DNA of 64,000 nt from positions 62,001 to 126,000 of the forward strand of contig CABYDZ010000001.1 of the NCBI GenBank assembly GCA_902517885.1. Reading direction: 5' to 3'. Positions 35,725 through 60,595 of the stretch are shown here, in pieces. Made by a program: the position numbers and the translations under genes. The stretch's first letter is position 1, and the number at the start of each line of letters is the position of its first letter. The notes beneath the pieces were generated by a model. It was not told the DNA's origin, ran no database searches, and was given only the letters and a program-made list of their open reading frames with translations. The stretch comes from an uncultured Pelagibacteraceae bacterium. GTDB taxonomy: Bacteria > Pseudomonadota > Alphaproteobacteria > Pelagibacterales > AG-422-B15.

Positions 35725-35726
35725 AA

Positions 35727-37738: not shown

Positions 37739-37745
37739 ATAATTC

Positions 37746-38060: not shown

Positions 38061-38869
38061 ATGTAAGGAATTTTACCATTCATCATGATTGATACGATAT
38101 TTTTTGTAAATTTTTTTAAATAATAGTTATTAGATGAAATACTTCTTATTATTATCTTACCATCCCACTCTGAAATACCAGTAGTTATACTTTTTTCATC
38201 ATGTATATTATCTTTTAATACAGTATAAAATTTATTCATCTCTGAACCGAGTATTATTATTGTATTAATTGCAATATTATCGTTAAGCATAAATTTACTT
38301 TTCCGCATTCTTTTTATATTATCTTCAAAGCCATTGATTTCAAGGTGAGCAATTTTATTATCATTAAATATTTTCCATCGATCAGAGTAGTAACCTTTTT
38401 CAATCGTTTCATGCATTGCTGATCTTCCATAAACAACTGTTTCACAGAAAAATAAATTTGAATTATTCAAAAGATTGATATCAATTTGACGTCTTAGGTT
38501 GCAGTTATCAAAGAGGATTGTTTCATTTGGTATCCAAAAAAGAGTACTGTTATCAATGTTAATTGTATATTTAAGTTCAGCCGCATCTCCATATCCACTG
38601 TATACCTTCTCTGCAGCCTGACTTGTAGTGAGCATATGTGTATTGTGTAAATCTATATTGATATTAAACTTATCTCCACTTGTTACACCCCCAGATGTAT
38701 TAACTAAAACTATTTGAGACAAATTAGAGTAGGATTGAGGTAGTAAAGCTTTAAGGCATCCTTGCTGATATAATCTTTCAACATCATTATTTATAAACTC
38801 TGCATCAATTGTGCCTACAGATTTTTGAAGATTTACTATCATGAAATTATCATAGTGTTTTAATTTCAA
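38045..38869 (-). CDS. ureD: Urease accessory protein UreD
   Basis: [26 protein letters not shown]; start could be M10 (38842). Confidence 0.93.
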
Positions 38870-38871
38870 GT

Positions 38872-38887
38872 TGACAAATAATTGTCA
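38872..38887. promoter_or_regulatory. Palindrome TGACAA-ATAA-TTGTCA in the ureD/urtA divergent intergenic region
   Basis: Perfect 6-bp inverted repeat with 4-bp spacer. Confidence 0.45.
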
Positions 38888-39028
38888 TTTATTTTTATCA
38901 CTAAAATTACAGATACTAATTAGTAATATAAAAATTACGTTTAAATATTTTTTTTGAAGATGTCATGTTGGCAAGTGTAAAGATTCGTATCACTAATTTT
39001 TTTAAGAAATTATGTAGCAGTTAAAAAA

Positions 39029-40309
39029 ATGAAAGGACGAATAATGATCAAGAAAATTATAGTTGTTATGTCATTTTTCTTTTTTAGTATCACTGCGTAT
39101 GCAGATACTATCAAAGTTGGCATATTACACTCGCTGTCGGGTACGATGGCAATCTCAGAGACAACGTTAAAAGATACAATGTTAATGTTGATCGATGAAC
39201 AAAATGAAAAGGGCGGTATTCTGGGAAAAAAACTGGAAGCAGTAGTCGTTGATCCTGCTTCAGATTGGCCACTTTTTGCTGAAAAAGCTCGAGAACTAAT
39301 AACTGTCAATGATGTTGATGTAATGTTTGGCTGCTGGACTTCTGTGTCTAGAAAGTCTGTATTACCCGTAATTGAAGAACTTAACGGATTACTTTTTTAT
39401 CCAGTTCAATATGAGGGTGAAGAAAGCTCAAAAAATGTATTTTATACCGGAGCCGCTCCAAACCAACAAGCTATACCAGCTACTGATTACTATCTAGAAG
39501 AACTAGGCATTGAAAAGTTCGCATTACTTGGAACTGACTATGTTTATCCTAGAACAACAAACAAAATTCTAAATCAATATTTAATTGATAAAGGAATTCC
39601 TGAATCTGATATTTTTGTAAATTACACACCTTTTGGTCACTCGGATTGGTCGAAAATTGTTGCTGATGTTGTAGCACTTGGGGCTGATGGAAAGAAGGTA
39701 GGTGTTATTTCAACTATTAACGGTGATGCAAACATTGGATTTTATAAAGAACTTGCAGCTGCAGGCGTGAACGCTGAAGACATACCAGTTGTCGCGTTCT
39801 CAGTTGGTGAAGAGGAATTATCCGGACTTGATACAAAAAATTTGGTTGGCCATCTAGCTGCGTGGAATTATTTTCAATCAGCTGAATCCGATTTAAATAC
39901 AGCATTTATCAAAAACTGGAAAAGCACTATGGGATCAGAAAGAGTTACTAATGACCCGATGGAAGCGCACGTGATTGGATTTAACATGTATGTAAAAGCA
40001 GTGGAAAAAGCTGGAACTACTGATGTAGATGCAGTTAGAGAAGCTATGTATGGAATTACAGTTCCAAATCTCACGGGTGGAACTGCAGAAATGCTCCCAA
40101 ATCATCATCTCTCTAAACCTGTTTTAATAGGTGAGATCCTTGAGGATGGTCAGTTTGATATAATTAGCCAAACGACCGAGGTTCCAGGAGATGCATGGAC
40201 AGATCACTTAGTAGAGTCAGCTGTTTTAAAATCAGATTGGCAAAGCTTAGGTTGTGGGATGTATAATACTTCGACCAGCAGCTGTGTTCAGTTAAAGTCT
40301 AACTACTAA
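39029..40309 (+). CDS. urtA: Urea ABC transporter substrate-binding protein
   Basis: IKVGILHSLSGTMAISETTLKD..., divergent from urease operon, followed by urtBCDE. Confidence 0.96.
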   Translation: MKGRIMIKKIIVVMSFFFFSITAYADTIKVGILHSLSGTMAISETTLKDTMLMLIDEQNEKGGILGKKLEAVVVDPASDWPLFAEKARELITVNDVDVMFGCWTSVSRKSVLPVIEELNGLLFYPVQYEGEESSKNVFYTGAAPNQQAIPATDYYLEELGIEKFALLGTDYVYPRTTNKILNQYLIDKGIPESDIFVNYTPFGHSDWSKIVADVVALGADGKKVGVISTINGDANIGFYKELAAAGVNAEDIPVVAFSVGEEELSGLDTKNLVGHLAAWNYFQSAESDLNTAFIKNWKSTMGSERVTNDPMEAHVIGFNMYVKAVEKAGTTDVDAVREAMYGITVPNLTGGTAEMLPNHHLSKPVLIGEILEDGQFDIISQTTEVPGDAWTDHLVESAVLKSDWQSLGCGMYNTSTSSCVQLKSNY

Positions 40310-40322
40310 TTTTAACCTAAAT

Positions 40323-40364
40323 AAAACGCTGTAAAGAATAGTTAATATTCTTTATGGCGTTTTT
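40323..40364 (+). terminator. Stem-loop with T-run between urtA and urtB
   Basis: AAAACGC-TG-TAAAGAATA-GTTAA-TATTCTTTA-TG-GCGTTTTT. Confidence 0.7.
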
Positions 40365-40369
40365 AAATT

Positions 40370-42382
40370 ATGAAAATTAAATTTTATATAATTTTTCTGT
40401 ATGTTTTTTTTGTAAATCTACCAGCAGTTGCTCACCATGATGAATTCAATATATTCTTAATAGAAAATTCAGAGAATATAATTAAGAGTTCAGCAAAAAC
40501 TGTTGATTCTATACTAAGAGACATACAAAGTTTTGATGATGAAATTGTTTCAAGATTTTTAGAATTGTGGAAATCGAAGAGTCTCTACTATATAAAAGAT
40601 ACGAAACAAGTAGTTATAGTTAATGAAAATGAAGAGTCACTTGACGCCTTAGAAATAGATGGTCTTACTAGGATCGGCAATTACAGCAAAAAAGAAATCA
40701 AAAAGATTAAACCCAACAGTGGAGTAAGAGCAAAAATAGACTCTATTTTAGTAAAATACCAAATATCTAATTCAGATATTAATGTACGACAAAAAAGCAT
40801 AGAAAGCTTAAAAAGAAATATCCGGCCTGAACATTTGGAAGTGTTACAAGATGCTTACATAAATGAGTCAGATGCAGAACTAAAAACTGTTATTGATCGA
40901 TTGCTAAAATTTGCAATTGTTAAGTACTCCGACTCGAATGATAAAAAATTAGAAATAATCGAGTCTTTTAAAGGCGATACTGCGATCGAAATAAGGGCTT
41001 CTCTAAATCAACTCCTCAATTCTTCAGAAGTGAAAGTCGGCATCTCTCTTCCTAATAATAAAAATATTGCTAGGGTAATTGTGCCTGGTTTTACAATCAA
41101 AAATAGTAATGGAACATCGGGTACAACTAATTTTTTTAATGAAGATGTTGAGATATCAATTAATGATGCATATGACAAATTATATGCAGATAATCTAGTT
41201 TATAAAAAAAGGATTACCCAAGAAGAATTAAAGAAAATATTAGAACAAAATATTAGCGGAGATACTATTGGAGGATATTCTATTAGTTCACTAGACAATG
41301 AACAATCTCGCATTGCTGCCTATAATAAATTAGTTGAAAATAATTTAGCACCTCCTTTTATTTCTGAAAATAAAATTAATGAAGAAGTAAACAAATTTAT
41401 ATTTTATTCGATTTACAATGAAACTTCTTCTGAAGTAACAAATGCCGCACTAAATACTCTAGCTAGTATAAATTTTAGAGTTCAGATCTATAAATATATT
41501 GACTTACTTATTGATGGTTTAAGTCTTGCATCAATCTATTTTCTTGGAGCAATTGGTTTAGCGATTACTTTTGGTGTAATGAGAGTAATCAATATGGCTC
41601 ATGGTGAATTTATCATGATGGGTGCCTATACGGGGTATGTTGTTCAACAATTTATAAGTAACCATACACTGTCACTTTTAGTTGCACTTCCCCTCGCATT
41701 TATAATTACATTTATAGCTGGAGTGATCATGGAAAGACTCGTTATACGTCATTTGTATCGTAAACCACTTGATACATTACTGGCCACTTTCGGGATCAGT
41801 ATTGCATTACAACAAATTGCAAAGAATATCTTCGGAACACAAGCAAGACCACTTACATCTCCATCGTGGCTTGATGGATCGCTCAGTCTGAGCGACGATC
41901 TATCGATCAGTTATATAAGAATTGCCATATTTATTTTGAGTCTAATATTTCTGGGTTTGTTGCTCTTTGTTATGAATCGTACCAGACTTGGATTGGAGAC
42001 TCGTGCAGTGACCCAAAATCCAGTGATGGCCTCCAACATGGGAATTAATCCTGAAAGAATAAATATGTTAACTTTTGGCTTTGGTTCAGGAATTGCAGGA
42101 ATTGCAGGAATTGCTATTGGACTTTTTTCTAAGGTTACATCTGAGCTTGGGTCTGAATATATAGTTCAGAGCTTTATGACAGTGGTTGTTGGAGGAGTGG
42201 GCAATATATGGGGCACATTAGCGGGAGCCTCACTAATCGGGTTCCTTCAAAAATTTATAGAATGGTTCAATCCATCTAATACTCTCGCAGCGCAAACTTA
42301 TATGATCATCTTTATTATTTTATTTATACAATTTAGACCAAAAGGGATAGTAGCCCTTAAAGGGAGAGCAGCTGATGACTAA
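40370..42382 (+). CDS. urtB: Urea ABC transporter permease UrtB (with N-terminal extension)
   Basis: C-terminal LivH-like permease (GVMRVINMAHGEFIMMGAYTGYV) after a long periplasmic-type N-terminal region. Confidence 0.95.
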   Translation: MKIKFYIIFLYVFFVNLPAVAHHDEFNIFLIENSENIIKSSAKTVDSILRDIQSFDDEIVSRFLELWKSKSLYYIKDTKQVVIVNENEESLDALEIDGLTRIGNYSKKEIKKIKPNSGVRAKIDSILVKYQISNSDINVRQKSIESLKRNIRPEHLEVLQDAYINESDAELKTVIDRLLKFAIVKYSDSNDKKLEIIESFKGDTAIEIRASLNQLLNSSEVKVGISLPNNKNIARVIVPGFTIKNSNGTSGTTNFFNEDVEISINDAYDKLYADNLVYKKRITQEELKKILEQNISGDTIGGYSISSLDNEQSRIAAYNKLVENNLAPPFISENKINEEVNKFIFYSIYNETSSEVTNAALNTLASINFRVQIYKYIDLLIDGLSLASIYFLGAIGLAITFGVMRVINMAHGEFIMMGAYTGYVVQQFISNHTLSLLVALPLAFIITFIAGVIMERLVIRHLYRKPLDTLLATFGISIALQQIAKNIFGTQARPLTSPSWLDGSLSLSDDLSISYIRIAIFILSLIFLGLLLFVMNRTRLGLETRAVTQNPVMASNMGINPERINMLTFGFGSGIAGIAGIAIGLFSKVTSELGSEYIVQSFMTVVVGGVGNIWGTLAGASLIGFLQKFIEWFNPSNTLAAQTYMIIFIILFIQFRPKGIVALKGRAADD

Positions 42383-43544
42383 TTCAATAAATGATTTACT
42401 AGCTCGACACACATTAATTTTTACAATAGTTGTTATTATATTTTCTCTGTTTATAACTTTTTTTAGTGAACCTTACGGAAACGGATTAATATCTACTAGT
42501 TTTGTCAAAACTTTAGGCAAAACTGTTTGTCTATGCATAATTGCTCTGGCAATGGATGTGGTATGGGGTTATTGCGGAATTCTGTCTCTAGGGCATTTCG
42601 CCTTTTTTGGACTTGGTGGTTACATGATTGGAATGTGGCTAATGTATGAGCGAACAGCCATTATTGTTCAGGAGGCTGCCACTAATGAGTTGCTTCCATT
42701 AACCGAAACCGAATTATCAAATGCCATTGGAAACCAGATTTTTGGAGTTGTCGGTGGCTATGAAATACCATCCATATGGATGTTTGCAGATAGTCTTGGT
42801 TTACAATTGATTTTGGTTATTGCAGTACCTGGTATTCTTGCATTTATATTTGGGTGGCTTGCATTCAGGTCGAGAGTAACTGGAGTTTATCTCTCAATTT
42901 TAACTCAAGCATTAACTTTAGCTCTATCACTATATTTATTTCAAAATGACAGTGGTCTAAGGGGTAATAATGGCCTCTCAGGTTTGCAGAATATTCCTGG
43001 CATTGAGTATTTAGGACAAGAGGTCATATCCATAGGGTTTTTTTGGGCAAGTTGTATTTTTCTAATATCTATTTTTTTACTTTTTCATTCACTTATGAAA
43101 AGCAAGTTTGGATTAATTATTACATCAATAAGAGATAACGAAACACGAGTAAGGTTCTTAGGGTATAATGTCGAAATATATAAATTATTTATATTTGTGT
43201 TAACAGCAATAATCTCAAGTATTGCTGGTGCTCTTTATTACCCTCAAGCAGGTATAATTAATCCTGCAGAGCTTGCGCCTATTGCATCGATCTATCTCGC
43301 TGTATGGGTTGCTATTGGAGGAAGAGGAAAATTGTATGGAGCAATCATTGGTGCCGCTTTTGTTTCATTATTTTCGTCATGGTTTACTGGTGGACAAGCA
43401 CCCGATATTCCTTTGGGCATATTTACTATAGAATGGGTGAATTGGTGGACGGTGTTGTTAGGGTTTGGATTTGTATTAATCACAATTTTTAGTGAAAATG
43501 GAATAATTGGTTTTTTAAGAAATATATTTGTTAAGGAAAAATGA
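42375..43544 (+). CDS. urtC: Urea ABC transporter permease UrtC
   Basis: LivM-like; WGYCGILSLGHFAFFGLGGYMIGMWLM. Confidence 0.95.
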   Translation: MTNSINDLLARHTLIFTIVVIIFSLFITFFSEPYGNGLISTSFVKTLGKTVCLCIIALAMDVVWGYCGILSLGHFAFFGLGGYMIGMWLMYERTAIIVQEAATNELLPLTETELSNAIGNQIFGVVGGYEIPSIWMFADSLGLQLILVIAVPGILAFIFGWLAFRSRVTGVYLSILTQALTLALSLYLFQNDSGLRGNNGLSGLQNIPGIEYLGQEVISIGFFWASCIFLISIFLLFHSLMKSKFGLIITSIRDNETRVRFLGYNVEIYKLFIFVLTAIISSIAGALYYPQAGIINPAELAPIASIYLAVWVAIGGRGKLYGAIIGAAFVSLFSSWFTGGQAPDIPLGIFTIEWVNWWTVLLGFGFVLITIFSENGIIGFLRNIFVKEK

Positions 43545-44323
43545 ATACTTTATTGAAAGTTGAAAAAATCTCGGTTTCATTTGATGGCTTTAAAGCTATT
43601 AATAGTTTGAGTTACAGCATTGGTAAAAATGAACTCAAAGCGATTATTGGACCTAATGGAGCTGGAAAAACTACCTTTATGGATATAATTACGGGCCAAA
43701 CTAAACCAGATGAAGGTAAAGTATTATTTGGTGAACGAAGCGTATGGCTTGAAAGTGATCAAAAATATCAAGTCGTTTGGGATGAAAATCTTCTAATGAA
43801 AAGTGAGTCTCAAATAGCATTACTAGGTATAGGAAGAAAATTTCAACGTCCTACTGTATTTGAGCTAAAAACAGTATTTGAAAATTTATTTATATCCATG
43901 AAGAAAAATAGAAGTCCTTTCAGTGTTTTATTCCAAAAATTAAATAGAGATGAAAAAAATCTAATAGAAAAAATACTAGGTGAAATTAGTCTTAAAAATG
44001 AACAAGATAGAATTGCTGGCGAGTTATCACACGGTCAAAAGCAGTGGTTAGAAATAGGAATGCTATTAACTCAAGAACCAAAGCTATTATTAATTGATGA
44101 ACCAGCAGCTGGAATGACTTCTAATGAAAGAAGACAGACAGTTGAGATTCTAAAAAAATTATCTGCAGATAAATCAGTTATTGTTGTTGAGCATGATATG
44201 GAATTTGTAAAAGATCTTGAATGTGAGGTTACTGTATTGCATGAAGGTTCAATTCTTTCAGAGGGTTCTATAGAACACGTGTCCTCTAATAATGAAGTAA
44301 TTGAGGTATATCTAGGAAGATAG
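43541..44323 (+). CDS. urtD: Urea ABC transporter ATP-binding protein UrtD
   Basis: GPNGAGKTTFMDIITGQTKPDEG; LSHGQKQWLEIGMLL. Confidence 0.95.
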   Translation: MNTLLKVEKISVSFDGFKAINSLSYSIGKNELKAIIGPNGAGKTTFMDIITGQTKPDEGKVLFGERSVWLESDQKYQVVWDENLLMKSESQIALLGIGRKFQRPTVFELKTVFENLFISMKKNRSPFSVLFQKLNRDEKNLIEKILGEISLKNEQDRIAGELSHGQKQWLEIGMLLTQEPKLLLIDEPAAGMTSNERRQTVEILKKLSADKSVIVVEHDMEFVKDLECEVTVLHEGSILSEGSIEHVSSNNEVIEVYLGR

Positions 44324-44325
44324 TC

Positions 44326-45021
44326 ATGATTGATATAAGTAATTTGAATTTTTACTATGGTTCTTCTCAGATATTATTTGATGTTTCACTCAAAGCGAAA
44401 AATAAAGAAATTACTTGTTTAATGGGTTCAAATGGAGTTGGTAAAACATCTTTATTAAAGTTTTTATCAGGAATCTATCCTTCAAAGTCAGGAAATTATC
44501 TTTTTGAAGGGGATAATGTAACTAACTTTAGCTCCCACCAACTTGCTAAGAGAGGAGTAGGGTATGTTCCTCAAGGCCGTTTTATATTTCCATTATTATC
44601 TGTCAAAGAGAATTTAGAAACTGGTTTTGCATGTTTAAAACGTGATGAACATTTCATACCTGATGAAATTTTTGATCTTTTTCCAGTATTGAAACAAATG
44701 ATAAATAGAAGAGGTGGAGATTTATCAGGAGGTCAACAACAGCAATTAGCAATTGCAAGAGCAATGATTTCAAAACCAAAATTACTACTTATGGATGAAC
44801 CAACCGAAGGAATACAGCCAAACATCATCCAGCAAATTGGAGAAGTCATAAAATATTTAAAAGATGAGCAGGGAATGACCATACTATTAGTTGAGCAATA
44901 TTTTGATTTTGCATTTGATTTAGCAGATTATATCTATGTCATGAAAAGAGGAAAAATTATTACTGAATCAAAGAAAGAGAGTCTGGATAAATTGTCGTTT
45001 AAAAATGAAGTATCAATTTGA
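44326..45021 (+). CDS. urtE: Urea ABC transporter ATP-binding protein UrtE
   Basis: GSNGVGKTSLLKFLSG; LSGGQQQQLAIARAM. Confidence 0.95.
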   Translation: MIDISNLNFYYGSSQILFDVSLKAKNKEITCLMGSNGVGKTSLLKFLSGIYPSKSGNYLFEGDNVTNFSSHQLAKRGVGYVPQGRFIFPLLSVKENLETGFACLKRDEHFIPDEIFDLFPVLKQMINRRGGDLSGGQQQQLAIARAMISKPKLLLMDEPTEGIQPNIIQQIGEVIKYLKDEQGMTILLVEQYFDFAFDLADYIYVMKRGKIITESKKESLDKLSFKNEVSI

Positions 45022-47052
45022 ATCTCTAGTCAAGCAAAGTAAAAAGGCATTATCGAGAGCGCTTTCTTCCATAGCATTTAATCGTCCACTTTTACCAGCA
45101 TGACCACCAACTAAATTCATTTTCATTAATATTGGATTATCTGAAGTACTGTTTTCTCTGAGTTTTGGAACATATTTTGCCGGTTCATAATACTGAACTT
45201 GAGAGTCATATAGACTGGATGTGACCAATACAGCGGGATAATTTGAAGGCTTAATATTGTCGTATGGCGAATAGCTTTTAATATAATTATATTCATCTTT
45301 ATTCGCTGGATTACCCCATTCTTTATACTCAAAAGTAGTCAGGGGAATTGTTTCATCTGACATAGTGGTGACCACATCCACAAAAGGAACTGCTGATATA
45401 ATACCTTTATATAAATCTGGTTCCATATTAATGATTGCACCCATTAACAGACCGCCGGCACTTCCACCCATCGCATATACATTTTTAGCATTGCCATACC
45501 CTTGTTTGATTAAAGATTTGGTTGCATCAATAAAATCATAAAATGTATTCTTTTTATTAAAAATTTTACCATCATCATACCACTGTCGCCCCATTTCAGA
45601 ACCACCTCGGATATTGGCGACAGCAAAAACGAAACCCCGATTGAGTAGGGGTAAGATGGACGTTCTAAAAGCTGCATCAATTATAATGCCATAAGAACCA
45701 TAGCCATAAATAAGGATGGGAGCTTGAGATAAGTCAGTTCCTTTTTTATATACTAGTGATACAGGAACTTTTGTATCATCACGGGCGGTAATTTTAAGTC
45801 TTTCAACCTCGTATAGATTTTCATCGTAATTGTTTACAGGCTGCTGCCATGCTAATTCACTCTTACCTGACTCAATATCCTCTTTGAATATTGAACTAGG
45901 TTTCTTTGGACTCGAATACCCATAGTAAAATTCAGTATCAAGGTACTCATTATTGGTCGCTAAATAACAAGAAAAGGCAGGGTCACTAAATTCAATATAA
46001 TTCCTATCGAGTGTTTCTCTGTTAATTTTTACTATCTTGGGCAGACCGTCTTCTCTTATCTCTAAATAAAGATATTGAGGAAAAGTGACAAAATCTTCAA
46101 TTAAAATAGCATCATCATGTTCAACTACAGTTTCCCACTCATTAAAATTATTAATTTGACTGATCGTGAATTTTAAAATTGAGAAGTTTTTTTTATTTTT
46201 TGCATTACTGCTGACATAGAAACACTCTGGTGTGTCTTCAATGGAATAAAGATGTTTATCGGATCGTTTGAGTACACAAAATGGTTGACTGAGTTCCTCA
46301 TCTAAATCAAGCAGCCACGTCTCTGAAGACTCAGTTTTACTGGTATAAATATTCAAATATTTCTTTGTCCGCGATTCATAAATATGAAGATGAAATTCCG
46401 GGTCATTTTCCTCATAGATTAAAACATCTTCTTTAGCATCAGTTCCAATTTTGTGTTTAAAAACCTTATTTTCTATCAAAGTAACAGGATCTTTTTGAGC
46501 ATAGTAAAATGAAGTATTTTTCTTATCCCAAACAATGCTCCCAGAGCTTCTCTCAACTTTACTGTCTATAATTTTGCCGGTCGTTAAATTTTTAACTTTT
46601 ATGTTGTATTCTCGTCGACCCGATAAATCTTCTGCATAAGCAATTAAAAGATTATTTGGTGATGGAGTTATTGACGTAATATTTATATAATCTAAATTCT
46701 CAGCCAGTGCATTTACATCAATAACTAACTCTTTAGTCCCATTGAGCTCTCGATAGTATGTTTTATATTGTTGTTCAGAGTTAATTTCAGAGTAATAGAG
46801 ATAATCTCCATATTTAATTTTCATTGAAACTTCTTTTGGTGGTATGAAACTAACTAATTCTTCATAAATTGTTTTTCGGCAATCATTATTTTTTTTAAAC
46901 CAATCTTCTAAGTACTGATTTTCTTCTTCTAAATAAGAAATAATTTCTGGATTTTTACGAGTATCATCTCTGAGCCAATAATAATCATCAACACGATTAT
47001 CGCCATGTGCAATATGGATTTTAGGAATTTTTTTTGGCTGAGGCGGTTTCAT
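45013..47052 (-). CDS. Prolyl oligopeptidase family S9 (oligopeptidase B-like)
   Basis: GGSAGGLLMGAIINM nucleophile motif, NIRGGSEMGRQWYDDGK, VGGHAGKSGR. Confidence 0.95.
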   Translation of the reverse strand: MKPPQPKKIPKIHIAHGDNRVDDYYWLRDDTRKNPEIISYLEEENQYLEDWFKKNNDCRKTIYEELVSFIPPKEVSMKIKYGDYLYYSEINSEQQYKTYYRELNGTKELVIDVNALAENLDYINITSITPSPNNLLIAYAEDLSGRREYNIKVKNLTTGKIIDSKVERSSGSIVWDKKNTSFYYAQKDPVTLIENKVFKHKIGTDAKEDVLIYEENDPEFHLHIYESRTKKYLNIYTSKTESSETWLLDLDEELSQPFCVLKRSDKHLYSIEDTPECFYVSSNAKNKKNFSILKFTISQINNFNEWETVVEHDDAILIEDFVTFPQYLYLEIREDGLPKIVKINRETLDRNYIEFSDPAFSCYLATNNEYLDTEFYYGYSSPKKPSSIFKEDIESGKSELAWQQPVNNYDENLYEVERLKITARDDTKVPVSLVYKKGTDLSQAPILIYGYGSYGIIIDAAFRTSILPLLNRGFVFAVANIRGGSEMGRQWYDDGKIFNKKNTFYDFIDATKSLIKQGYGNAKNVYAMGGSAGGLLMGAIINMEPDLYKGIISAVPFVDVVTTMSDETIPLTTFEYKEWGNPANKDEYNYIKSYSPYDNIKPSNYPAVLVTSSLYDSQVQYYEPAKYVPKLRENSTSDNPILMKMNLVGGHAGKSGRLNAMEESALDNAFLLCLTRDSN

Positions 47053-47089
47053 TATTTTCTAATATGTTACTAGCATTTTTTCAATTTTA

Positions 47090-47133
47090 TGGTGCCCCCA
47101 ACCTGTACTGACCAGGTATCTACGCATTACCAA
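47090..47133 (-). tRNA. 3' half of a split tRNA-Thr(GGU)-like gene (anticodon loop to CCA)
   Basis: Minus strand TTGGTAA-TGCGT-AGAT-ACCTG-GTCAGTA-CAGGT-TGGGGGC-A-CCA; pairs with the 5' half at 56297-56333. Confidence 0.8.
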
Positions 47134-47134
47134 T
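47127..47134. repeat. attL core TTACCAAT
   Basis: Direct repeat of 56297-56304. Confidence 0.8.
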
Positions 47135-47266
47135 TGTTTGTGGTTTACTTTCTAGGGTTTTCACGCTAAGGTCAACTATATGTTTGAGAGGCAAAAAAGG
47201 CCAGTAAATATGGCTATTTTACAACATTTTCCTAGTTTTCCATTGTTTCAGACGATTACAAATATT

Positions 47267-47286
47267 TGGTGTAAATATGGTGTAAA
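47267..47286 (+). repeat. Left arm-type repeat pair TGGTGTAAA x2 (11-bp period)
   Basis: TGGTGTAAATATGGTGTAAA; matches 56219-56238 with one substitution. Confidence 0.75.
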
Positions 47287-47383
47287 GTTAGAATTGGTTA
47301 AAAATGGCGGGTTTTCTAGACCCGATACGAACCCTCTAAATAGGCCGGGTTTGTACATAGATATGATGTTGTCTCTCCACAAT

Positions 47384-47457
47384 GCCTCCATGGTGAAATG
47401 GAATCATACGTCCTTGGTAAGGACGAGTTCCCTTGTCAGTAAAGGGTGGAGGCACCA
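47384..47457 (+). tRNA. Complete tRNA-Thr(GGU)-like cloverleaf overlapping the integrase start
   Basis: GCCTCCA-TG-GTGA-AATGGAA-TCAT-A-CGTCC-TTGGTAA-GGACG-AGTT-CCCTT-GTCAGTA-AAGGG-TGGAGGC-A-CCA; all stems pair (one G-U in the D stem); anticodon GGT; TATGAT hexamer at 47362-47367. Confidence 0.75.
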
Positions 47458-48680
47458 TGCCTAAAGAAACACAGAAGTACAAAGCTCAGAAATCCAAGAT
47501 CACCGCTACGCTGGCAGACAAACTCAAACCACAGAAGAAGTCTCCACGTCCAGGAGACAAAGGACCTAGATATAACGTTAATCGACTCTGGGATACCGAT
47601 ATTAAGGGCTTTTATCTTGAGTGTGGTACTGGTGGCACCAAGACGTGGTATCTACGCTATTCAAATAAATTTCAAAGGAAACAGACCTATAAGATTGGTC
47701 GTTATCCAGCAATCACCGTACCGTCAGCCAGGAAGGAGGCTTTAATAAAGCTTGGTGAGGTAGCACAGGACATTGATATCCAGAAAGAAAAAAGACAGCA
47801 GATATCACAGGGTTCAGTTGCAGAGTTCAGTAAGAAATATCTGAAGATGCTCCCTGATTATAAATCTAAACACCGAGAGGTTTGGTGTCATGAGAAACGT
47901 ATTGTTCCATCTATTGGACACTTGAAACTGAAGGAAGTTGATAGGGAAGTCATCATGACAATGATGAAGAAATATGATCACTTGGGGGCAGACTGGGTGC
48001 GGACCAAAGTCATGCTACATAAATTCTTCAAAGAGATGATGTTAAATAAGCGGATTTCATACAATCCGGTAGCCGATATTCCTACACCTAAAGACAAGAA
48101 ATATAAGCCACGTACAGTCGTAATGACACCAGAACAGGTACTAAAGGTTAGAGAATTTTTAATTCAGGAAGTAGAAACACACCCAATACACTGTTATTAC
48201 CTGGGACTACTTCTAGCAATTGGAGCCAGACCTGGTGAGTTGATCAAAATAACTTGGGATCAAATCGATCTTAAGAATGCGACGATGGGTAACTTGTCAA
48301 TTGGGGAAGGTGCTGGAACAAAGACTGGCGATAAAGACATACCCATATCAGATGTTGCATTGAAGTATTTCAAGGAACTATACAAACATACTGGTACTTT
48401 CAAGTGGTGTTTCCCTGGACTTAATCCCACTAAACACATGTCCTCATACAGAGATTTCTACGACAAAGTTAGAGCGTATGCTGGCATAGGCAAAGTACAG
48501 ATGAGAGATTTTAGAAGAACTTTTATCACTGCTGGTGCAAAGTCCTCAGATGATATCCACGCAGTATCACAGATTGTGCAACACTCAGATATTAATATCA
48601 CTGCTAAAGTTTATGATCAGGTAGATGATAAGAGGCAACGTAAAGCGTTGAAGAAGATAAAAGGTGTGGCCTTACTATGA
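47457..48680 (+). CDS. Tyrosine recombinase / integrase (DUF4102-type N-terminus)
   Basis: LAIGARPGELIKITWDQID, MRDFRRTFITAGA, QHSDINITAKVYDQV; ATG preceded by GGAGG at 47448-47452; listed TTG start at 47433 less likely. Confidence 0.95.
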   Translation: MPKETQKYKAQKSKITATLADKLKPQKKSPRPGDKGPRYNVNRLWDTDIKGFYLECGTGGTKTWYLRYSNKFQRKQTYKIGRYPAITVPSARKEALIKLGEVAQDIDIQKEKRQQISQGSVAEFSKKYLKMLPDYKSKHREVWCHEKRIVPSIGHLKLKEVDREVIMTMMKKYDHLGADWVRTKVMLHKFFKEMMLNKRISYNPVADIPTPKDKKYKPRTVVMTPEQVLKVREFLIQEVETHPIHCYYLGLLLAIGARPGELIKITWDQIDLKNATMGNLSIGEGAGTKTGDKDIPISDVALKYFKELYKHTGTFKWCFPGLNPTKHMSSYRDFYDKVRAYAGIGKVQMRDFRRTFITAGAKSSDDIHAVSQIVQHSDINITAKVYDQVDDKRQRKALKKIKGVALL

Positions 48681-48844
48681 TCGAACTCATAATGCTTAAG
48701 ATGTGTTTTGAGAACGGTGAACTAGAGAAGTATATTGAGGAACATACAAACGTTGCCACCGTAATCTACGCCAGCTATGATGAGGAAGAAAGTACAATTG
48801 AGAGCGATAGAAAATGCTACTATATTTCTATCGAACGCTGGTGA
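48677..48844 (+). CDS. Small orphan protein, 55 aa (not in supplied ORF list)
   Basis: ATGA overlap with integrase stop; MIELIMLKMCFENGELEKYIEEHTNVATVIYASYDEEESTIESDRKCYYISIERW, stop 5 bp before the next plausible ATG. Confidence 0.6.
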   Translation: MIELIMLKMCFENGELEKYIEEHTNVATVIYASYDEEESTIESDRKCYYISIERW

Positions 48845-48848
48845 AAAT

Positions 48849-49718
48849 ATGAAACGAGTATTAGACTTCACCGTTGCAAACATTGGCCACCCAGAGAGTT
48901 TTCAAAAAACCTTGCTTGAGCCATTAGCCGTAATGGGTATTGAGTTATCTGAGATTGGTAAACACTCAGCACAATCAGCTTTTGATCACTTTGTTCATAG
49001 GTTTTATGAACTGTATGACATTCACCAATACGACCAATATCCTGAAGCCAAGAAGCTCGATCAGTTTGACAAGAAGATTGAAAGCTTGTGGAAAGTTGTA
49101 GCTGAAGAAAATCGACGAGATCTTGAGGCTATGCAAGAGCTAGAGAAAGCTTTATTGAAAGCTCAGGACGAGATAAGAAAAATGAAACGTCACCGTGAAG
49201 AAAACCCAAAGAGTGATACTGTATATCCTCCAGGTGTAGTTATGCTTTGTCAGCATTTAATACTTTACTGGGATGACTGGATGCGGAACTTTATGGTGAA
49301 ACATAAACCAGGGGCATCAGTTAAAAGTTACTTCTATCAAATTGATAACCAGATGACCTTCGAATTACAAAAACATCTTCTTGAAGGCGTGGATGTTAAT
49401 AGTAATCCTGGCGGAGCATTTATACAGAGAGCATTTTATAATTACTGGGGTATTGATTTTACAACAGCCCAAATGAAAACCCTGATCCTGAAAGCGTGGG
49501 AGAGTAAACCCACCAAAGACGAATTAAATATTAAGCCACACATACCGTTAGATATTTGGTTGAGACACCAGAATTTAAGTATGGATCAAGTGGTAGAGGA
49601 AGAAGTAGCTGGTAGTTTTAAGTTGCAGCAGTTTTCAGCATCAAATGAATATATGGCATCACTGCAAGAGACTATCGATAACCTCCGAAAGTGGAGAGAA
49701 GAAAAAAATAAGAAGTAG
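48849..49718 (+). CDS. Hypothetical element protein with coiled-coil segment
   Basis: 289 aa from internal ATG (MKRVLDFTVANIGHP); ORF opens at 48777. Confidence 0.7.
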   Translation: MKRVLDFTVANIGHPESFQKTLLEPLAVMGIELSEIGKHSAQSAFDHFVHRFYELYDIHQYDQYPEAKKLDQFDKKIESLWKVVAEENRRDLEAMQELEKALLKAQDEIRKMKRHREENPKSDTVYPPGVVMLCQHLILYWDDWMRNFMVKHKPGASVKSYFYQIDNQMTFELQKHLLEGVDVNSNPGGAFIQRAFYNYWGIDFTTAQMKTLILKAWESKPTKDELNIKPHIPLDIWLRHQNLSMDQVVEEEVAGSFKLQQFSASNEYMASLQETIDNLRKWREEKNKK

Positions 49719-49805
49719 ATCCAGAAATTATCCAGTCAACTTTTTGACCGCATAAAAACAGTTAGTAAAGTTGTTAGTGTTTCACGAGTATTCTATCTAT
49801 AGAGT

Positions 49806-50153
49806 ATGGAAAACAAAACACCAGAACTTGATATTGATGTTTATGCTCTCATCCCTGAGCTACTCGACCTAGAACAAATTCATCATTTGTACGGGCTGGC
49901 ACCAGGTACGATTAGAAGAGAGAGATGGCAACAAAAACTAATTAAAGAACGAAAAATTAAAGCTGAGGATGTAAAGAAAATTAATACCTCAGGTTTTGGC
50001 TTTTTGTATGAACCTGTCCTTATGTACGGGAAACTTTATTACAGACGAAAAGACGTAGAGCATTTCATAAAGACCTGCCAAGAAAAATCACCAATGGAAC
50101 AACTGCGACTTGCATCAATAGCTGGCAGAGCGCGCGAAGGTAAGAGTGTATGA
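49806..50153 (+). CDS. AlpA/excisionase-like or MerR-like DNA-binding protein
   Basis: LDLEQIHHLYGLAPGTIRRERWQQK HTH plus LYYRRKDVEHFIKTC wing-like end. Confidence 0.6.
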   Translation: MENKTPELDIDVYALIPELLDLEQIHHLYGLAPGTIRRERWQQKLIKERKIKAEDVKKINTSGFGFLYEPVLMYGKLYYRRKDVEHFIKTCQEKSPMEQLRLASIAGRAREGKSV

Positions 50154-50725
50154 TTGATAAAGCTATACGATTAGAGCGGGAACTAAAACGAAGTGGAAAG
50201 ATTGATAAAAATTTATCTAAAATCTCAACTGATGAATTTCCAGAAAAAGTTTTTCCAAAGATTGAACGCGGCCCCGAGGCATATAACGCCAGTCTTATTG
50301 ATTTAATCGACAACATACGCAGCACTACACCTGGACCAGAGGGTAAACAATTTGTGCTACCTAAATATACAGACGTGCCAACACAGAAAATTAAACATTT
50401 TAAACCTCCAACGACCGCAGAGATTTTGAGAATGTTCAATGATAATTTTACCTTAGGTGGCACTAACGACTTTGAAGAATTTAAAACAAAACTATTCAAT
50501 CGAGAATATAACGACCTAGAAATCGACCTTACAGACTACCTCGATTATGTGTTTGATGGTGAGGAAATGTCCATCAAAGAAGCTCATGAATTTGGTAATA
50601 GAAAATATGAGGACCTAGATGTTAAAGGCAGTTTATTTAAAACAATCGAAGATAGAACTGAATATAACATCGGTCTTGGCGCATTATTTCAAGAAGAAAT
50701 GAATGATCGGAGAGCAGGTTTATGA
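50150..50725 (+). CDS. Hypothetical element protein, 191 aa
   Basis: ATGA overlaps on both sides. Confidence 0.7.
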   Translation: MIDKAIRLERELKRSGKIDKNLSKISTDEFPEKVFPKIERGPEAYNASLIDLIDNIRSTTPGPEGKQFVLPKYTDVPTQKIKHFKPPTTAEILRMFNDNFTLGGTNDFEEFKTKLFNREYNDLEIDLTDYLDYVFDGEEMSIKEAHEFGNRKYEDLDVKGSLFKTIEDRTEYNIGLGALFQEEMNDRRAGL

Positions 50726-50916
50726 GAATAGACGATCTTCTTCTAGACGAACTTATCCGCCTGCATGATATCGCAAGAGAGAATGGCTACAAAGGCGACT
50801 ACCTACAATTCAAAAAAGATCTAGAGCGAAACCCAGAGTTTCTCTTCCCTCCAAGTGCAGGACCAGATTTTGCAGGTGGTGGTCTTGTAAGTTTATTTAG
50901 AAGGCTAGCAGTATGA
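50722..50916 (+). CDS. Hypothetical small element protein, 64 aa
   Basis: ATGA overlaps on both sides; C-terminal GPDFAGGGLVSLFRRLAV. Confidence 0.65.
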   Translation: MRIDDLLLDELIRLHDIARENGYKGDYLQFKKDLERNPEFLFPPSAGPDFAGGGLVSLFRRLAV

Positions 50917-51509
50917 GCAAAGAAAAATATATATTTCAATTTTCAAAACTTACCTCAGAACGAATGAGGGATGAACTGCTTAAGATGACACCACCAAAAC
51001 AAACCAGAACGCCTTACATAAGATCATCAGTGCTGGTGGCTGAAGAGTTATTAACAAATCCTTACCCAAACAAAGATATTGAAATCATCATTGATTGCAC
51101 TGGTGAAAGTGTATGGGTATTTGATCATGCTCATCAGATCACACATGAATACAAAAAACATCTATCTCACTACCATACACAGGAAGGCACAATACTGCCT
51201 ATATACAGCCAGCTAAAAGACAAAATAAAGCAGCACTTGTTAGATGTAGTAAACAAATATGAGGATATGGAAAACGAAGTGCCAGATCTTGTTATAAACA
51301 ATGGACAGATAAGTTTTAATTGTAGTGAAGGTTATTTCTGGGATGCCGAAGAAATGCAAGTTTCAATAGAAGATTATATTCCATGCCTTCTAACTCCCAA
51401 TGAGGCAATCCTGAGTGCAGCTGCATTAGAAAATATTGGTAATGGAGACATTCGCGCTGGCGGGATGGCAGTACAGATGCTTAATACAACAGCGAGAGTT
51501 GAACTATGA
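50913..51509 (+). CDS. Hypothetical element protein, 198 aa
   Basis: ATGA overlaps; intact ORF. Confidence 0.7.
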   Translation: MSKEKYIFQFSKLTSERMRDELLKMTPPKQTRTPYIRSSVLVAEELLTNPYPNKDIEIIIDCTGESVWVFDHAHQITHEYKKHLSHYHTQEGTILPIYSQLKDKIKQHLLDVVNKYEDMENEVPDLVINNGQISFNCSEGYFWDAEEMQVSIEDYIPCLLTPNEAILSAAALENIGNGDIRAGGMAVQMLNTTARVEL

Positions 51510-51823
51510 GTTATCCGTTCGATCCATTCATAAGCCCCGTTCCAATATCCTTGAAGCCCTCTAAGACAAACAAAAAACCAGTAATAAAGAAAATAGAACC
51601 ACGTGCAACGAAGGTCATACAAACACCTGATCCTTTAAAACAAAAGCTAATGGAGGGTAAACCTTTAATACAAAAGCTACTGAGAGCAAAAGAGATTGAT
51701 GCAAAGCTCACGATGAAACGGAAACATAATCAAAAAGATGGTGAGTATTTTGCACTGCTAGAAGAATTTCACACCAATAGCAAAGACATAGAGATTGAAA
51801 GCTATAAGGGAGAAAAAAAATGA
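51506..51823 (+). CDS. Hypothetical element protein, 105 aa, basic
   Basis: ATGA overlaps; intact ORF. Confidence 0.65.
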   Translation: MSYPFDPFISPVPISLKPSKTNKKPVIKKIEPRATKVIQTPDPLKQKLMEGKPLIQKLLRAKEIDAKLTMKRKHNQKDGEYFALLEEFHTNSKDIEIESYKGEKK

Positions 51824-52077
51824 CAATTAAAGAAATGCCAAGTGTATTAGAGGATATTGAGAAGAAGTTTTATACGGCTACGGTCACTAAGATCAGATCT
51901 ACAGCAACTAAAGGTGATTTTAAAAATGCATTTAAGTTTATTAACCGTGCTGAGTTGGCAGATGGGATCAAACGTAAACTTTTTGCTGAGGTACAAAAAC
52001 TTCAAATTATGCATGGCATGCCACATAACGAGTTAGACGACAATCCCTATATGGAGACTAGTGAATGGAAGAATTAA
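51820..52077 (+). CDS. Hypothetical element protein, 85 aa
   Basis: ATGA overlap upstream; 13-bp overlap downstream. Confidence 0.65.
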   Translation: MTIKEMPSVLEDIEKKFYTATVTKIRSTATKGDFKNAFKFINRAELADGIKRKLFAEVQKLQIMHGMPHNELDDNPYMETSEWKN

Positions 52078-52433
52078 TAACGATAGAAGGTAGAAAATAT
52101 CATAAGGCTTATTTAGAGCACTGTCTTAAAAATGATTTATGGATTGGTTTTGCAAGACAGAGGACAGAAAATTCAACATACGACGAAACTTATACCGCAG
52201 TTAAACAATGGTTGATCCCATTGATAACTGAGGACAGCAATTTTACAAAGGGAGCACTGATGAAGTATGCACGAGAGAACTATAAAGGCCCTTGTGCTTA
52301 CAAAGACGTGGGTAAAGTTGTGAGTAGGATTGTCAGTGATGAATGCACCAGCAGATTTGGGTTGTGGTGCAAAGAAACTACTAAATTAAAAATACGTATG
52401 AGAGTGAAACATGGAAAGTCAAACACAATCTAG
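52065..52433 (+). CDS. Hypothetical element protein, 122 aa
   Basis: Overlaps both neighbours; intact ORF. Confidence 0.65.
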   Translation: MEELITIEGRKYHKAYLEHCLKNDLWIGFARQRTENSTYDETYTAVKQWLIPLITEDSNFTKGALMKYARENYKGPCAYKDVGKVVSRIVSDECTSRFGLWCKETTKLKIRMRVKHGKSNTI

Positions 52434-54840
52434 ACAATTTGAAAAACTATTTGAAGGAAAGAAGAAGAGCCACGGTTATCTAAAAGGGATGAGGTGGGAC
52501 GATATAGATGCGGACGGTAAGTGTAGTAAAGACGCCCGGACCAGACACAGACCGCCCAACTTTCATAATCATTTAAACGGTATAGAAAAGATTGGGATCA
52601 TACCGTTTGTATCTAGTGATAGATGTAAATGGGGTGCTGTTGATGTAGATGAATACAGCAATCTTGATCACAAAAAATTAGTAAACAAACTCAGAGATAA
52701 AAAAATTCCTGGTGTAGTCACCAGATCAACAAACGGGGGAGCACATATATGGTTCTTCTTTGACAAACCTGTGCCCAGTCACCTGCTAGTGAGCAGACTA
52801 AGAGGTGTTAGATGTGAACTAGGTATGAACCCGAAGGGTGAAGTGTTTCCAAAACAAACAGCCTTGGGGCCAGGTGATACCGGCAATTATTTATTCCTGC
52901 CTTACTTTCCTAAAAAGATTGATACGGCAAACAAACAATTTGTTGATGGATGTGACACCTATTGCATCACTGAAGAGGGCAAAGAGTTAAGTCTTGAAGA
53001 GTTTGAAGATTACGCAACAGCTTATGTCAGCAATAAGTTAAACGATATGAAGGTGGATGGATGGATTGATAATGGAGAAGAATACACTCAAAGTGAGTCC
53101 GTTGATCCCGAGGATGTTGAGGAAGGGTTAGAGGATGCACCGTCCTGTGTGCAGTTTTGTTCTAGTCAAATAACTAAAGCCGGTAAAGGTAGAGATGTTT
53201 TTATGTATGCTTACACCCTCTATAAACTGAAAAAGAATGGCGTTGTATCAATCAACGATATGAAGTGGTTGAACAAAAAATATGATCCTCCGCTGGCAGA
53301 CGATGATCTAACAAGAATACATAAACAGGTGCATAAAAATAAAAAGCAGCAATATAATTGTGAGGCAGTTAAACCTTACTACTGCAATAAAGAAACTTGT
53401 CGTTTACAGAAATATGGTATCGGTAGCGGTGGCGGAGACAGCTATTTTGATAATTGGTTGTATGTAAAATATCCACCACAGGTGGTGAAGTTGAAACCGG
53501 AACCAAAAGTTTACAAAACATTCGAAGCCAAAGAAGTGATGCTGGTAGAGCGTGGAATGATCCAGGTTAGTGCAAAAAGTACAATTCACCCAGGACACTT
53601 ATATCTTGATAAAATTGCCAGACACAATGCGGTGGACTACTTGGAGTGGCATCCTGCTAAGCCAGAGATTTTTCATACAAGGGTTAAAAACGGAACTGTC
53701 AAAGTGTTTAATAACTTTGTCCCAACAAATGTAGAGCCCGTTGAAGGTGATACAGCACAGTGGGAGGACTACTTAGACACTAGATTTAAACACCCAGAAT
53801 ATAGAAAATGGTTTGAAGATTTCTGGGCTCACAAAATACAAAAGCCTGAAGTCAGAATAATGTCAAATATATTATTAATCAGTGATTGGGGTGGCACTGG
53901 TAAGTCTCTTATTGGTGAAACAATGGAAGAATTATTTGGCGTACACAACACAGCAAACATAAGTTTAGATGCGATGGAGAGTGGTTGGGCTGATGTTGTT
54001 ATGAACAAACTACTGATCACAGTAGAAGAGATTTATGACACAGGACAGCACAGAGCAAAAATTGCATCAATAATAAAAAGATTAACAACAATCAAAAATG
54101 AATATGGAAATATGAAATATGGAAAGTTTCAACAGGCGGAAGTTTATGGATCTCTATATTTTCAATCAAACTCTAGGTCAGCAATCACAGTTAAGAAACA
54201 GGACCGTCGCCCGGGTATTTATAAATTGGATAACGATAAAGAGGAATTAATGGAGCAAAACAATAAGGAAGGCGACCTATTGAAAGAATGGTTGGATGAA
54301 GAGGATGGTTATGGAAAATTACTGCATCGTCTTTTAACTCGAGATGTATCGGACTTCTCACCTACTGCTGTGCCGCCACAAACAGAGGCAAAAAAGATGA
54401 TGGTTGCCAACACAGCAGGATTTAAATACGCAAAAATTATGACAGCTTGGAATGACAGGATGTTTCCATTTACTTCACAATCAAAGGTCTATTGTCCAAG
54501 ATGGATAGCACATTTACTCAAATGTGATCCCGAGGAAGTAGAGGCATTATTTGTTGATCAACTTGGTTGTCAGAGACTTGGCAGAGTGCAGAATGTGGAC
54601 TTTGTGATCTATGACAGAAACAACAACAATAAGCCGTTCCAGGTGGACTCAACACGAACTGAAGTCATTCTTTACACAAATGATCCCGATTTAATTGCTA
54701 ACAAAGAAACTATGAAGCCAAAACATTGGATGGAATACTACCTGCACCCAATACAACACGGAGGTAAAAACTATTATGGACAAGATGACAGGGTAAATGT
54801 GAATCTTTTAGAGGTGCTTAACACGGATAACACGGATTGA
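52411..54840 (+). CDS. Primase-polymerase (AEP, TOTE-primase-like) fused to SF3/NrS-1-like helicase
   Basis: WGAVDVDEYSNLDHKKLVNKL...VVTRSTNGGAHIWFFFDKPV (AEP core); LISDWGGTGKSLIGETMEELFG (Walker A); KLLITVEEIYDT; YFQSNSRSAI (SF3 motif C-like). Confidence 0.88.
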   Translation: MESQTQSRQFEKLFEGKKKSHGYLKGMRWDDIDADGKCSKDARTRHRPPNFHNHLNGIEKIGIIPFVSSDRCKWGAVDVDEYSNLDHKKLVNKLRDKKIPGVVTRSTNGGAHIWFFFDKPVPSHLLVSRLRGVRCELGMNPKGEVFPKQTALGPGDTGNYLFLPYFPKKIDTANKQFVDGCDTYCITEEGKELSLEEFEDYATAYVSNKLNDMKVDGWIDNGEEYTQSESVDPEDVEEGLEDAPSCVQFCSSQITKAGKGRDVFMYAYTLYKLKKNGVVSINDMKWLNKKYDPPLADDDLTRIHKQVHKNKKQQYNCEAVKPYYCNKETCRLQKYGIGSGGGDSYFDNWLYVKYPPQVVKLKPEPKVYKTFEAKEVMLVERGMIQVSAKSTIHPGHLYLDKIARHNAVDYLEWHPAKPEIFHTRVKNGTVKVFNNFVPTNVEPVEGDTAQWEDYLDTRFKHPEYRKWFEDFWAHKIQKPEVRIMSNILLISDWGGTGKSLIGETMEELFGVHNTANISLDAMESGWADVVMNKLLITVEEIYDTGQHRAKIASIIKRLTTIKNEYGNMKYGKFQQAEVYGSLYFQSNSRSAITVKKQDRRPGIYKLDNDKEELMEQNNKEGDLLKEWLDEEDGYGKLLHRLLTRDVSDFSPTAVPPQTEAKKMMVANTAGFKYAKIMTAWNDRMFPFTSQSKVYCPRWIAHLLKCDPEEVEALFVDQLGCQRLGRVQNVDFVIYDRNNNNKPFQVDSTRTEVILYTNDPDLIANKETMKPKHWMEYYLHPIQHGGKNYYGQDDRVNVNLLEVLNTDNTD

Positions 54841-55510
54841 GACCACCAGACTGCCAAAGACTAAGCCGGACACACAGCCACGGGCCAAAAGAAATCTCTT
54901 TTTATGTATGTGATGCTTGTTAAGCGTGTGAATTGGTGTGTACCAACGGGCTGATGAAGTTAATTGCTTGTTAAGCATGTTAAGCGTCCAAGAAACTATA
55001 GTGAGGATTCACAGTAATATACAAATATGTTATGCTGCTGATATGGAAGATCTCTACCCATACACACAACTAGAATATGCAAAATTGCTTGGTTTATCTA
55101 AGGCAGGACTAATATCGAGAAGAAAAACTGGGAAGTTAGAAGGGCAATATATCGTAAAAGATAAATGTTATTACTATGCGCGCCTGCGTCCAGATCAAGT
55201 AAAACCCACACCTAAAACACACACCAAACCACGCAGACGGGGCGCTCACAATTCAGGGTCCGCGCTCCATTATCCAAACCAGGCTTTTAAAGAGCATAAC
55301 GAAGTGAAGATGTTGGCAAAGATAAGATCAAACCTGGATCAAGAAACGTTGGATTTGATCCCTGAGGCAGTAGAGATAGCAAAGCAGAAACGGCAAGATA
55401 GGATTAAAGAGACTATTAAATCTATCGATCAACCTACAAAGCAATATTCGACAGGATTATATAATCCAAAACATGTTACGCCAAGCTGGCGACCATTAGG
55501 TGTTAAGCGT
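54815..55510. repeat. Iteron-like repeats of TGTTAAGC(G/A)T
   Basis: TGTTAAGCGT at 54918-54927, 54978-54987, 55501-55510; TGTTAAGCAT at 54969-54978; reverse TGCTTAACA at 54815-54823. Confidence 0.6.
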
Positions 55511-55537
55511 ATTGCACGAAACTATAAATATTATTAA
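55043..55537 (+). CDS. Putative DNA-binding protein (N-terminal HTH), element-encoded
   Basis: YTQLEYAKLLGLSKAGLISRRKTGKLEGQYI; ATG at 55043 preferred over 54938. Confidence 0.6.
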   Translation: MEDLYPYTQLEYAKLLGLSKAGLISRRKTGKLEGQYIVKDKCYYYARLRPDQVKPTPKTHTKPRRRGAHNSGSALHYPNQAFKEHNEVKMLAKIRSNLDQETLDLIPEAVEIAKQKRQDRIKETIKSIDQPTKQYSTGLYNPKHVTPSWRPLGVKRIARNYKYY

Positions 55538-55606
55538 ATATAACGGTATTCGCTCTCAAACGAATAAACTGGAGTTGTCCATTATCCCAAGTGGATGGCT
55601 CCAGAC

Positions 55607-55843
55607 TTAATAGTCTAACCAACCCCAAGTTGCTCGAGGTTTTTTGTAGCGAAGTGATACTAAATACATATCGAGATATAACTCCCGGCGGTATTCTTTG
55701 TAATATATTTCATCAGATTGTTTATCGACCATCTTCTTCCAGTGCCTACGGGATCTGTAATAATCGGTGAGGGGAGATTGCAGTGGCGTATTCTTCTTTG
55801 GTTTATACCAACTCATCAGTCGGAATTTGTTTACATGATCCAC
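55607..55843 (-). CDS. Small basic, aromatic-rich hypothetical protein (78 aa)
   Basis: Only minus-strand ORF of the element with plausible composition; convergent with 55043 ORF. Confidence 0.45.
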   Translation of the reverse strand: MDHVNKFRLMSWYKPKKNTPLQSPLTDYYRSRRHWKKMVDKQSDEIYYKEYRRELYLDMYLVSLRYKKPRATWGWLDY

Positions 55844-55969
55844 TCAAAACCAATAACATAAAATCCCATACCCCTTCAAAATAAATTTCATAAAATTTTT
55901 AGCATCTGTGAATGAATGGATCTTTGTTATTACGTCTTGCTGTGTACGAACCTAATAATATACAGCCGC

Positions 55970-56060
55970 TTGGGTGGGACCTCTCTTAAAGTTATATCAA
56001 AAAGCATGCTTTGAGACCCCTATCGAGAGCAAAGCGAAGGCCGAAGGCCTGAGCTTTTTT
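55970..56060 (+). ncRNA. Candidate structured small RNA ending in an intrinsic terminator
   Basis: TTGCTG-N16-TATACA (55937-55964); GGG..TCTC..AAAG pairing with CTTTGAGACCCC; terminal hairpin AAAGC-GA-AGGCC-GAA-GGCCT-GA-GCTTTTTT. Confidence 0.4.
56031..56060 (+). terminator. Intrinsic terminator with symmetric GA/GA internal loop
   Basis: AAAGC GA AGGCC GAA GGCCT GA GCTTTTTT. Confidence 0.7.
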
Positions 56061-56218
56061 GACCAAGCCCACAAGTGCAACCATTTACTTACGAATGTAA
56101 GCCAAATAACCACTGTTGCTTAATCAAATTGTTGAGTCAAATCAGTAACTTAATTCGAATTAATAAAGTGTTTTAAGTATTTATTGCTTATTTTTTGAGT
56201 ATATACAACGCTTTCCTG

Positions 56219-56238
56219 TGGTGTAAATGTGGTGTAAA
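56219..56238 (+). repeat. Right arm-type repeat pair TGGTGTAAA x2 (11-bp period)
   Basis: TGGTGTAAATGTGGTGTAAA; same spacing as 47267-47286. Confidence 0.75.
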
Positions 56239-56296
56239 TACGGGCCCGTTAAATAGTTTACAACAAAATCAATGGTTTAGGGTAACCCTCATATAC

Positions 56297-56304
56297 TTAC
56301 CAAT
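56297..56304. repeat. attR core TTACCAAT
   Basis: Direct repeat of 47127-47134. Confidence 0.8.
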
Positions 56305-56333
56305 GCGTTGCACTACCATTGTGCTATGGGGGC
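56297..56333 (-). tRNA. 5' half of the split tRNA-Thr(GGU)-like gene (acceptor, D arm, anticodon loop)
   Basis: Minus strand GCCCCCA-TA-GCAC-AATGGTA-GTGC-A-ACGCA-TTGGTAA; acceptor pairs with TGGGGGC at 47094-47100, anticodon stem with TGCGT at 47122-47126. Confidence 0.8.
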
Positions 56334-56345
56334 TTGTTCTATTTA

Positions 56346-58136: not shown

Positions 58137-58159
58137 CTTATTCTCTATAGTTAATAGTT

Positions 58160-58576: not shown

Positions 58577-58650
58577 CTTAATAACTATAAATCTTGTTTT
58601 TATATGACAAACCCATTAGAAGACAATCAATATTATTTTATCACTCATCA

Positions 58651-60471: not shown

Positions 60472-60595
60472 TTAATAGCTTTTTATGAGGAGAAACTCAG
60501 TGTCATTAATTAATTGCTTTTTTTTGAGCAATTCTTATTCTTTAATAATTAATATTAAATTCAGCAAAAGTTATTGTACGTAAGGGTTAAAATAT

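Follow-up and report, generated by a model that had tools for sequence, protein, structure and literature searches.

Element anatomy

The window, that is, the whole stretch of 64 000 nucleotides analysed here, contains an integrated element of about 9.2 kb (47127–56304), whose features are listed in table 1. Two of its genes could be assigned to a function, namely a tyrosine integrase and an AEP-type primase, and several small genes are devoid of Pfam or PHROG matches. Since no virion or structural gene was recognised by PHROGs or Pfam among the larger open reading frames, the element can only be said to work like a tRNA-dependent lysogen, and is not one in the strict sense. A peptide-pattern scan retrieved no relative of the integrase from viral contigs or species genomes, and none of the 398 genomes of the order gave a match beyond the genome of origin; similarly, the primase had no relative in viral contigs and no match beyond its own genome among 118 related genomes. 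No close relative of the element was found in the viral contigs or genomes scanned.

Within the element, the 8-mer TGGTGTAA is confined to two tandem pairs, one near each end, and these paired 11-bp repeats look like the arm-type sites of tRNA-dependent phages. A possible, weak −10 box is located 17 nt before the 5′ end of the element tRNA described below; it was not reported by the promoter scan. The Rfam matches obtained in the window (5_ureB_sRNA and SAM_alpha) are not relevant here, and the former (36995–37280), antisense to an open reading frame of the reverse strand (35727–37433), may reflect the mere conservation of a ureB-like coding sequence.

Table 1. Features of the element and of the host gene that it interrupts (positions in the window).
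Feature	Position	Strand	Evidence
Host tRNA-Thr(GGU), 3′ part, 45 nt including the 8-bp core	47090–47134	−	left flank aligns to the empty site up to 47134
att core ATTGGTAA, left junction	47127–47134	−	halves of the split gene and empty site
Integrated element body	47135–56296	+	absent from the otherwise collinear empty site of G036 (L116) and G039 (L118)
Putative integrase arm sites, tandem 11-mers ATTTGGTGTAA ATATGGTGTAA	47264–47285	+	repeat analysis
TATGAT, possible −10 box (weak)	47362–47367	+	read from sequence
Element-borne tRNA-Thr(GGU) with CCA	47384–47457	+	21/21 pairs, match at 85% identity, covariation
GGAGG, Shine–Dalgarno-like, in the 3′ acceptor strand of the tRNA	47448–47452	+	sequence; putative function
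Tyrosine integrase, 407 aa	47457–48680	+	translation; Arm-DNA-bind_3 (PF13356) and Phage_integrase (PF00589) above Pfam cut-offs
AEP-type primase with DUF5906 domain, 809 aa	52411–54840	+	Pfam AEP-TOTE and DUF5906; PHROG primases
Putative integrase arm sites, tandem TGTGGTGTAAA (two copies)	56217–56238	+	repeat analysis
att core ATTGGTAA, right junction	56297–56304	−	halves of the split gene and empty site
Host tRNA-Thr(GGU), 5′ part, 37 nt including the 8-bp core	56297–56333	−	right flank aligns to the empty site from 56297

A host tRNA gene split by the element

The element is inserted in the anticodon loop of the host tRNA-Thr(GGU) gene, which is thereby cut in two, a split at the element ends that the earlier reader of this sequence did not see. 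The two halves of the gene overlap solely by the 8-bp ATTGGTAA, which contains the entire anticodon loop TTGGTAA. Once joined, they yield a perfect 74-nt cloverleaf, which matches the uninterrupted gene at 74 of 74 positions in ten further members of the host family (a family of the Pelagibacterales other than the Pelagibacteraceae) and differs from it by one base in an eleventh. The corresponding empty site is found in the sister genome G036, the left flank being 99.9% identical over 4.6 kb up to the core and the right flank 94.6% identical over 4.2 kb beyond it, and likewise in G039, with flanks 92–93% identical. As these two empty sites fix both ends, the element spans approximately 9.17 kb between the two cores. 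In the chimeras created at the junctions, the acceptor stem is lost (0/7 pairs in each): neither junction regenerates a tRNA, and the host gene is thus destroyed. On a larger scale, identity to G036 amounts to 98.6–99.9% on the left of the element (28525–47134) versus 94.6% on the right (56297–60486), an excess which suggests recent recombination on the left side.

No second tRNA-Thr(GGU) was found in the host genome; because this genome is 85% complete, an additional copy may lie in its missing part. Across the family, exactly one GGU-type match was obtained for 44 of 54 genomes (30 of these 44 being read by sequence), and two matches for none. As a counterpoint to the need for a replacement, ACC and ACU may be decoded through wobble by tRNA-Thr(UGU).

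Many genomes of the family display a second, very divergent type of tRNA-Thr(GGU), with AGCGTAA as T-loop and AATAGTA as D-loop, which is 47/74 identical to the host type and is not detected by ARAGORN. Since in several genomes this divergent type adjoins the same S9 peptidase gene, tRNA-Thr(GGU) seems to have been exchanged at one locus within a genus.

The element-borne tRNA-Thr(GGU)

A complete tRNA-Thr(GGU) cloverleaf of 74 nt, encoded CCA included, precedes the integrase gene within the element. The original prediction of such a cloverleaf was borne out in both its sequence and its stems (7/4/5/5), which form 21 of 21 pairs. On neither strand of the window does another site combine this geometry with at least 20 of 21 pairs, and none occurred in 20 Markov-generated windows of 64 kb. 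Its folding is moderately better than that of shuffled sequences (z = −2.8). Moreover, blastn aligned it to a chromosomal tRNA-Thr(GGU) from another genome of the order with 85% identity (E = 2.8e-15), and covariation is marked: relative to five related tRNA-Thr sequences, both members of 5 to 11 stem pairs are changed, and relative to the host gene, ten stem pairs carry two-sided changes, with pairing kept in all of them. Homology and covariation thus show it to be a genuine tRNA and not a chance fold, homology being, at the level of the sequence, a stronger proof than RNA folding alone. Anticodon loop, D-loop, CCA and order-specific T-loop are all retained, and no further tRNA was found in the element. 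The element tRNA is identical to the host gene at 50 of 74 positions and to a Pelagibacteraceae tRNA at 59 of 74, and is therefore probably derived from a different lineage of Pelagibacterales.

The T-loop of this tRNA reads GTCAGTA instead of the usual TTCRANN, and for this reason both ARAGORN and the Rfam tRNA model fail to detect it. The same loop is nevertheless normal for tRNA-Thr(GGU) in Pelagibacterales, as related genomes have it in their chromosomal copies too. Indeed, a scan of species genomes for this T-arm retrieved at least 119 contigs, and the 80 matches listed all belong to Pelagibacteraceae/Pelagibacterales (SAR11). Four contigs of the viral collection also harbour a tRNA-Thr(GGU) with a SAR11-type T-loop, located in other contexts and without adjoining start codon; in three of them it stands beside other tRNAs.

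Overlap of the tRNA and the integrase gene

The tRNA and the integrase gene have one nucleotide in common (position 47457): the CCA end closes with the A that opens the ATG start codon, whose T and G (47458–47459) lie outside the tRNA. The shared nucleotide of the original prediction is thereby confirmed from the sequence. This ATG is a credible start, as it is preceded at 4 nt by GGAGG and has no better alternative: no other ATG, GTG or TTG start lies ahead of the arm-binding domain of the integrase, and the sole in-frame alternative upstream is a TTG within the T-arm. Compared with related tRNAs, both strands of the acceptor stem have changed so as to yield GGAGG, a change that would fit selection for a ribosome-binding site without being proof of it. 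From the geometry of the locus, it would follow that the fold sequesters GGAGG and that 3′ maturation of the tRNA removes the ATG. In the folds predicted for the unprocessed transcript, GGAGG is largely base-paired whether or not the 5′ half of the cloverleaf is present. An RNA switch in which the cloverleaf would alternate with a helix formed with the integrase coding sequence was also predicted, and was rejected as codon-shuffled controls did equally well in 158 of 200 cases.

The original prediction also implied that a cloverleaf would be conserved upstream of homologous integrases. This expectation failed, since a tRNA was found at the start of none of the 29 class-level homologues (23–29% identity) and of none of the four Arm-DNA-bind_3 integrases of the order. 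Similarly, no viral contig contained a tRNA of the element type followed by an ATG, and among the matches listed for the order-type T-arm in genomes and viral contigs, none had an ATG, GTG or TTG on the terminal A. The overlap is known from a single element, and a selected regulatory role is accordingly devoid of comparative support. We consider it rather unlikely that the overlap is a selected switch, by which each transcript would end up as replacement tRNA or as message for the integrase, but not as both. If such a switch did exist, synthesis of the integrase would depend on failed or delayed tRNA maturation, and the movement of the element would be tied to the state of the tRNA-processing machinery of the host.

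Role of the element tRNA

In our opinion, the element cloverleaf is very probably a functional replacement for the split tRNA-Thr(GGU) gene of the host. Among the roles that had been envisaged for it, that of a replacement tRNA is now strongly supported, because the gene split by the element is the host's own tRNA-Thr(GGU). In this reading, the integrase targeted the anticodon loop of this gene for insertion, with only the 8-bp core shared with attP; as read from the junctions, the tRNA is rebuilt on neither side. The element tRNA, which agrees with it in isotype and anticodon, would then supply the lost decoder of ACC and ACU, so that the integrated state would be viable. It directly precedes the integrase gene and is probably co-transcribed with it. 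As the 3′ acceptor strand would double as the ribosome-binding site of the integrase and its terminal A as part of the start codon, a transcript matured to tRNA would be unable to yield integrase, which would stay low during tRNA production. In both the integrated and the excised states, the tRNA would remain with the integrase.

The suggestion that the cloverleaf is a decoy of the att site is disfavoured, as the real core lies in the host gene: the element tRNA and attB have TTGGTAA in common, but their flanking stem positions differ at 4 of 5 on each side. These differences in the anticodon stem may protect the element tRNA from its own integrase. Likewise, the location of GGAGG inside the acceptor stem, the ATG beginning at the CCA and the mostly paired state of the GGAGG region in predicted folds could be taken as signs of a cis-acting tRNA mimic, mainly controlling translation of the integrase or stability of its message without being a working tRNA. 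However, a mimic would have no need of the anticodon loop, D-loop, CCA and order-specific T-loop, all of which are kept, the host gene that is split is of the same isotype, and related integrases lack a tRNA at their start; such a mimic thus appears very improbable.

We attribute an equally small probability to a passenger tRNA that would offset codon bias or a tRNA-cutting defence of the host, the split gene being coincidental or tolerated. Although this is a common explanation of phage tRNAs (PMC10865867), isotype and anticodon match exactly those of the gene that was cut, and the element carries no other detected tRNA. The last alternative, an ordinary tRNA-gene island whose integration would have rebuilt the host tRNA, here the cloverleaf, at the junction next to the integrase, might be expected from the frequent location of integrases beside tRNA genes, the four other Arm-DNA-bind_3 integrases of the order being themselves near such genes. 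Yet the junction lies 250 bp away, in a tRNA-Thr(GGU) gene of the opposite strand, to which the element tRNA is barely more than two-thirds identical, and both ends are confirmed by the empty site of G036, so that we regard this alternative as refuted and its probability as close to nil. Three of the four Arm-DNA-bind_3 integrases, from Pelagibacteraceae, each follow an intact tRNA-Thr(UGU) at a distance of about 180 bp, the interval containing tandem TTTGTAGT-type repeats, and apparently belong to conventional islands.

Comparison with known systems

TRNA-dependent lysogeny was demonstrated experimentally in 2024 in mycobacteriophages (PMC10865867). The present element resembles Fionnbharth, Gaia and other actinobacteriophages of that study in its arm-type tyrosine integrase with paired (here putative) arm sites, in a core of 8–10 bp from which the tRNA is not rebuilt, and in carrying a tRNA whose isotype is that of the target. 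The attB of these phages is in a single-copy host tRNA gene; here, no second copy was found in a genome that is 85% complete. It differs from them as a 9.2-kb element of Pelagibacterales with primase and integrase and no recognised virion genes, by its target, tRNA-Thr(GGU), and by the overlap of its tRNA with the integrase start codon; in Fionnbharth, the tRNA overlaps another gene (37) on the opposite strand (PMC10865867).

According to passages of PMC10865867 and PMC12429752, the Lj965 prophage of Lactobacillus johnsonii similarly inactivates a host tRNA and carries a cognate one, as do Lo5R7ANS-like prophages of Sinorhizobium meliloti, another alphaproteobacterium. Both are prophages, for which these passages mention no tRNA–integrase overlap, whereas the element described here is a small primase element. 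The tandem arrangement of tRNA and integrase is shared with ICEKp1 and ICEclc, whose integrase is transcribed from a tRNA promoter (PMC13023037). For ICEKp1, an RNase E-sensitive co-transcript of tRNA and integrase was shown, but there the tRNA is a host gene from which int is separated by excision (PMC13023037), whereas here it lies inside the element. The islands defined by Islander also combine a tyrosine integrase with a tRNA gene as target, yet regenerate the latter at one junction (PMC4383910), which neither junction does here. Finally, the Caldiarchaeum tRNA-Thr(GGU) locus, as presented in passages of PMC3293823, likewise has a mobile element between a 5′ fragment and a complete tRNA-Thr(GGU). 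That insertion, discussed there as a way in which introns and split tRNAs could arise, is archaeal, 1.8 kb long and recombinase-bearing, with no overlap with an integrase start reported in these passages; the present case is bacterial.

Significance

The principle of tRNA-dependent integration is known; its use by a small primase element and the overlap of the tRNA with the integrase start set the present case apart. The replacement role of the element tRNA is well supported by the sequence comparisons, and extends a phage principle, by which an element breaks a host tRNA gene and supplies a substitute, to a small primase element of SAR11-type bacteria from the ocean, whose tRNA sets are minimal. 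The layout is compact, the 3′ end of a tRNA bearing the putative ribosome-binding site and the start codon of a gene. Because standard finders fail on this tRNA, comparable cases may have gone unnoticed on a wide scale. The host would depend on the element tRNA for as long as integration lasts.
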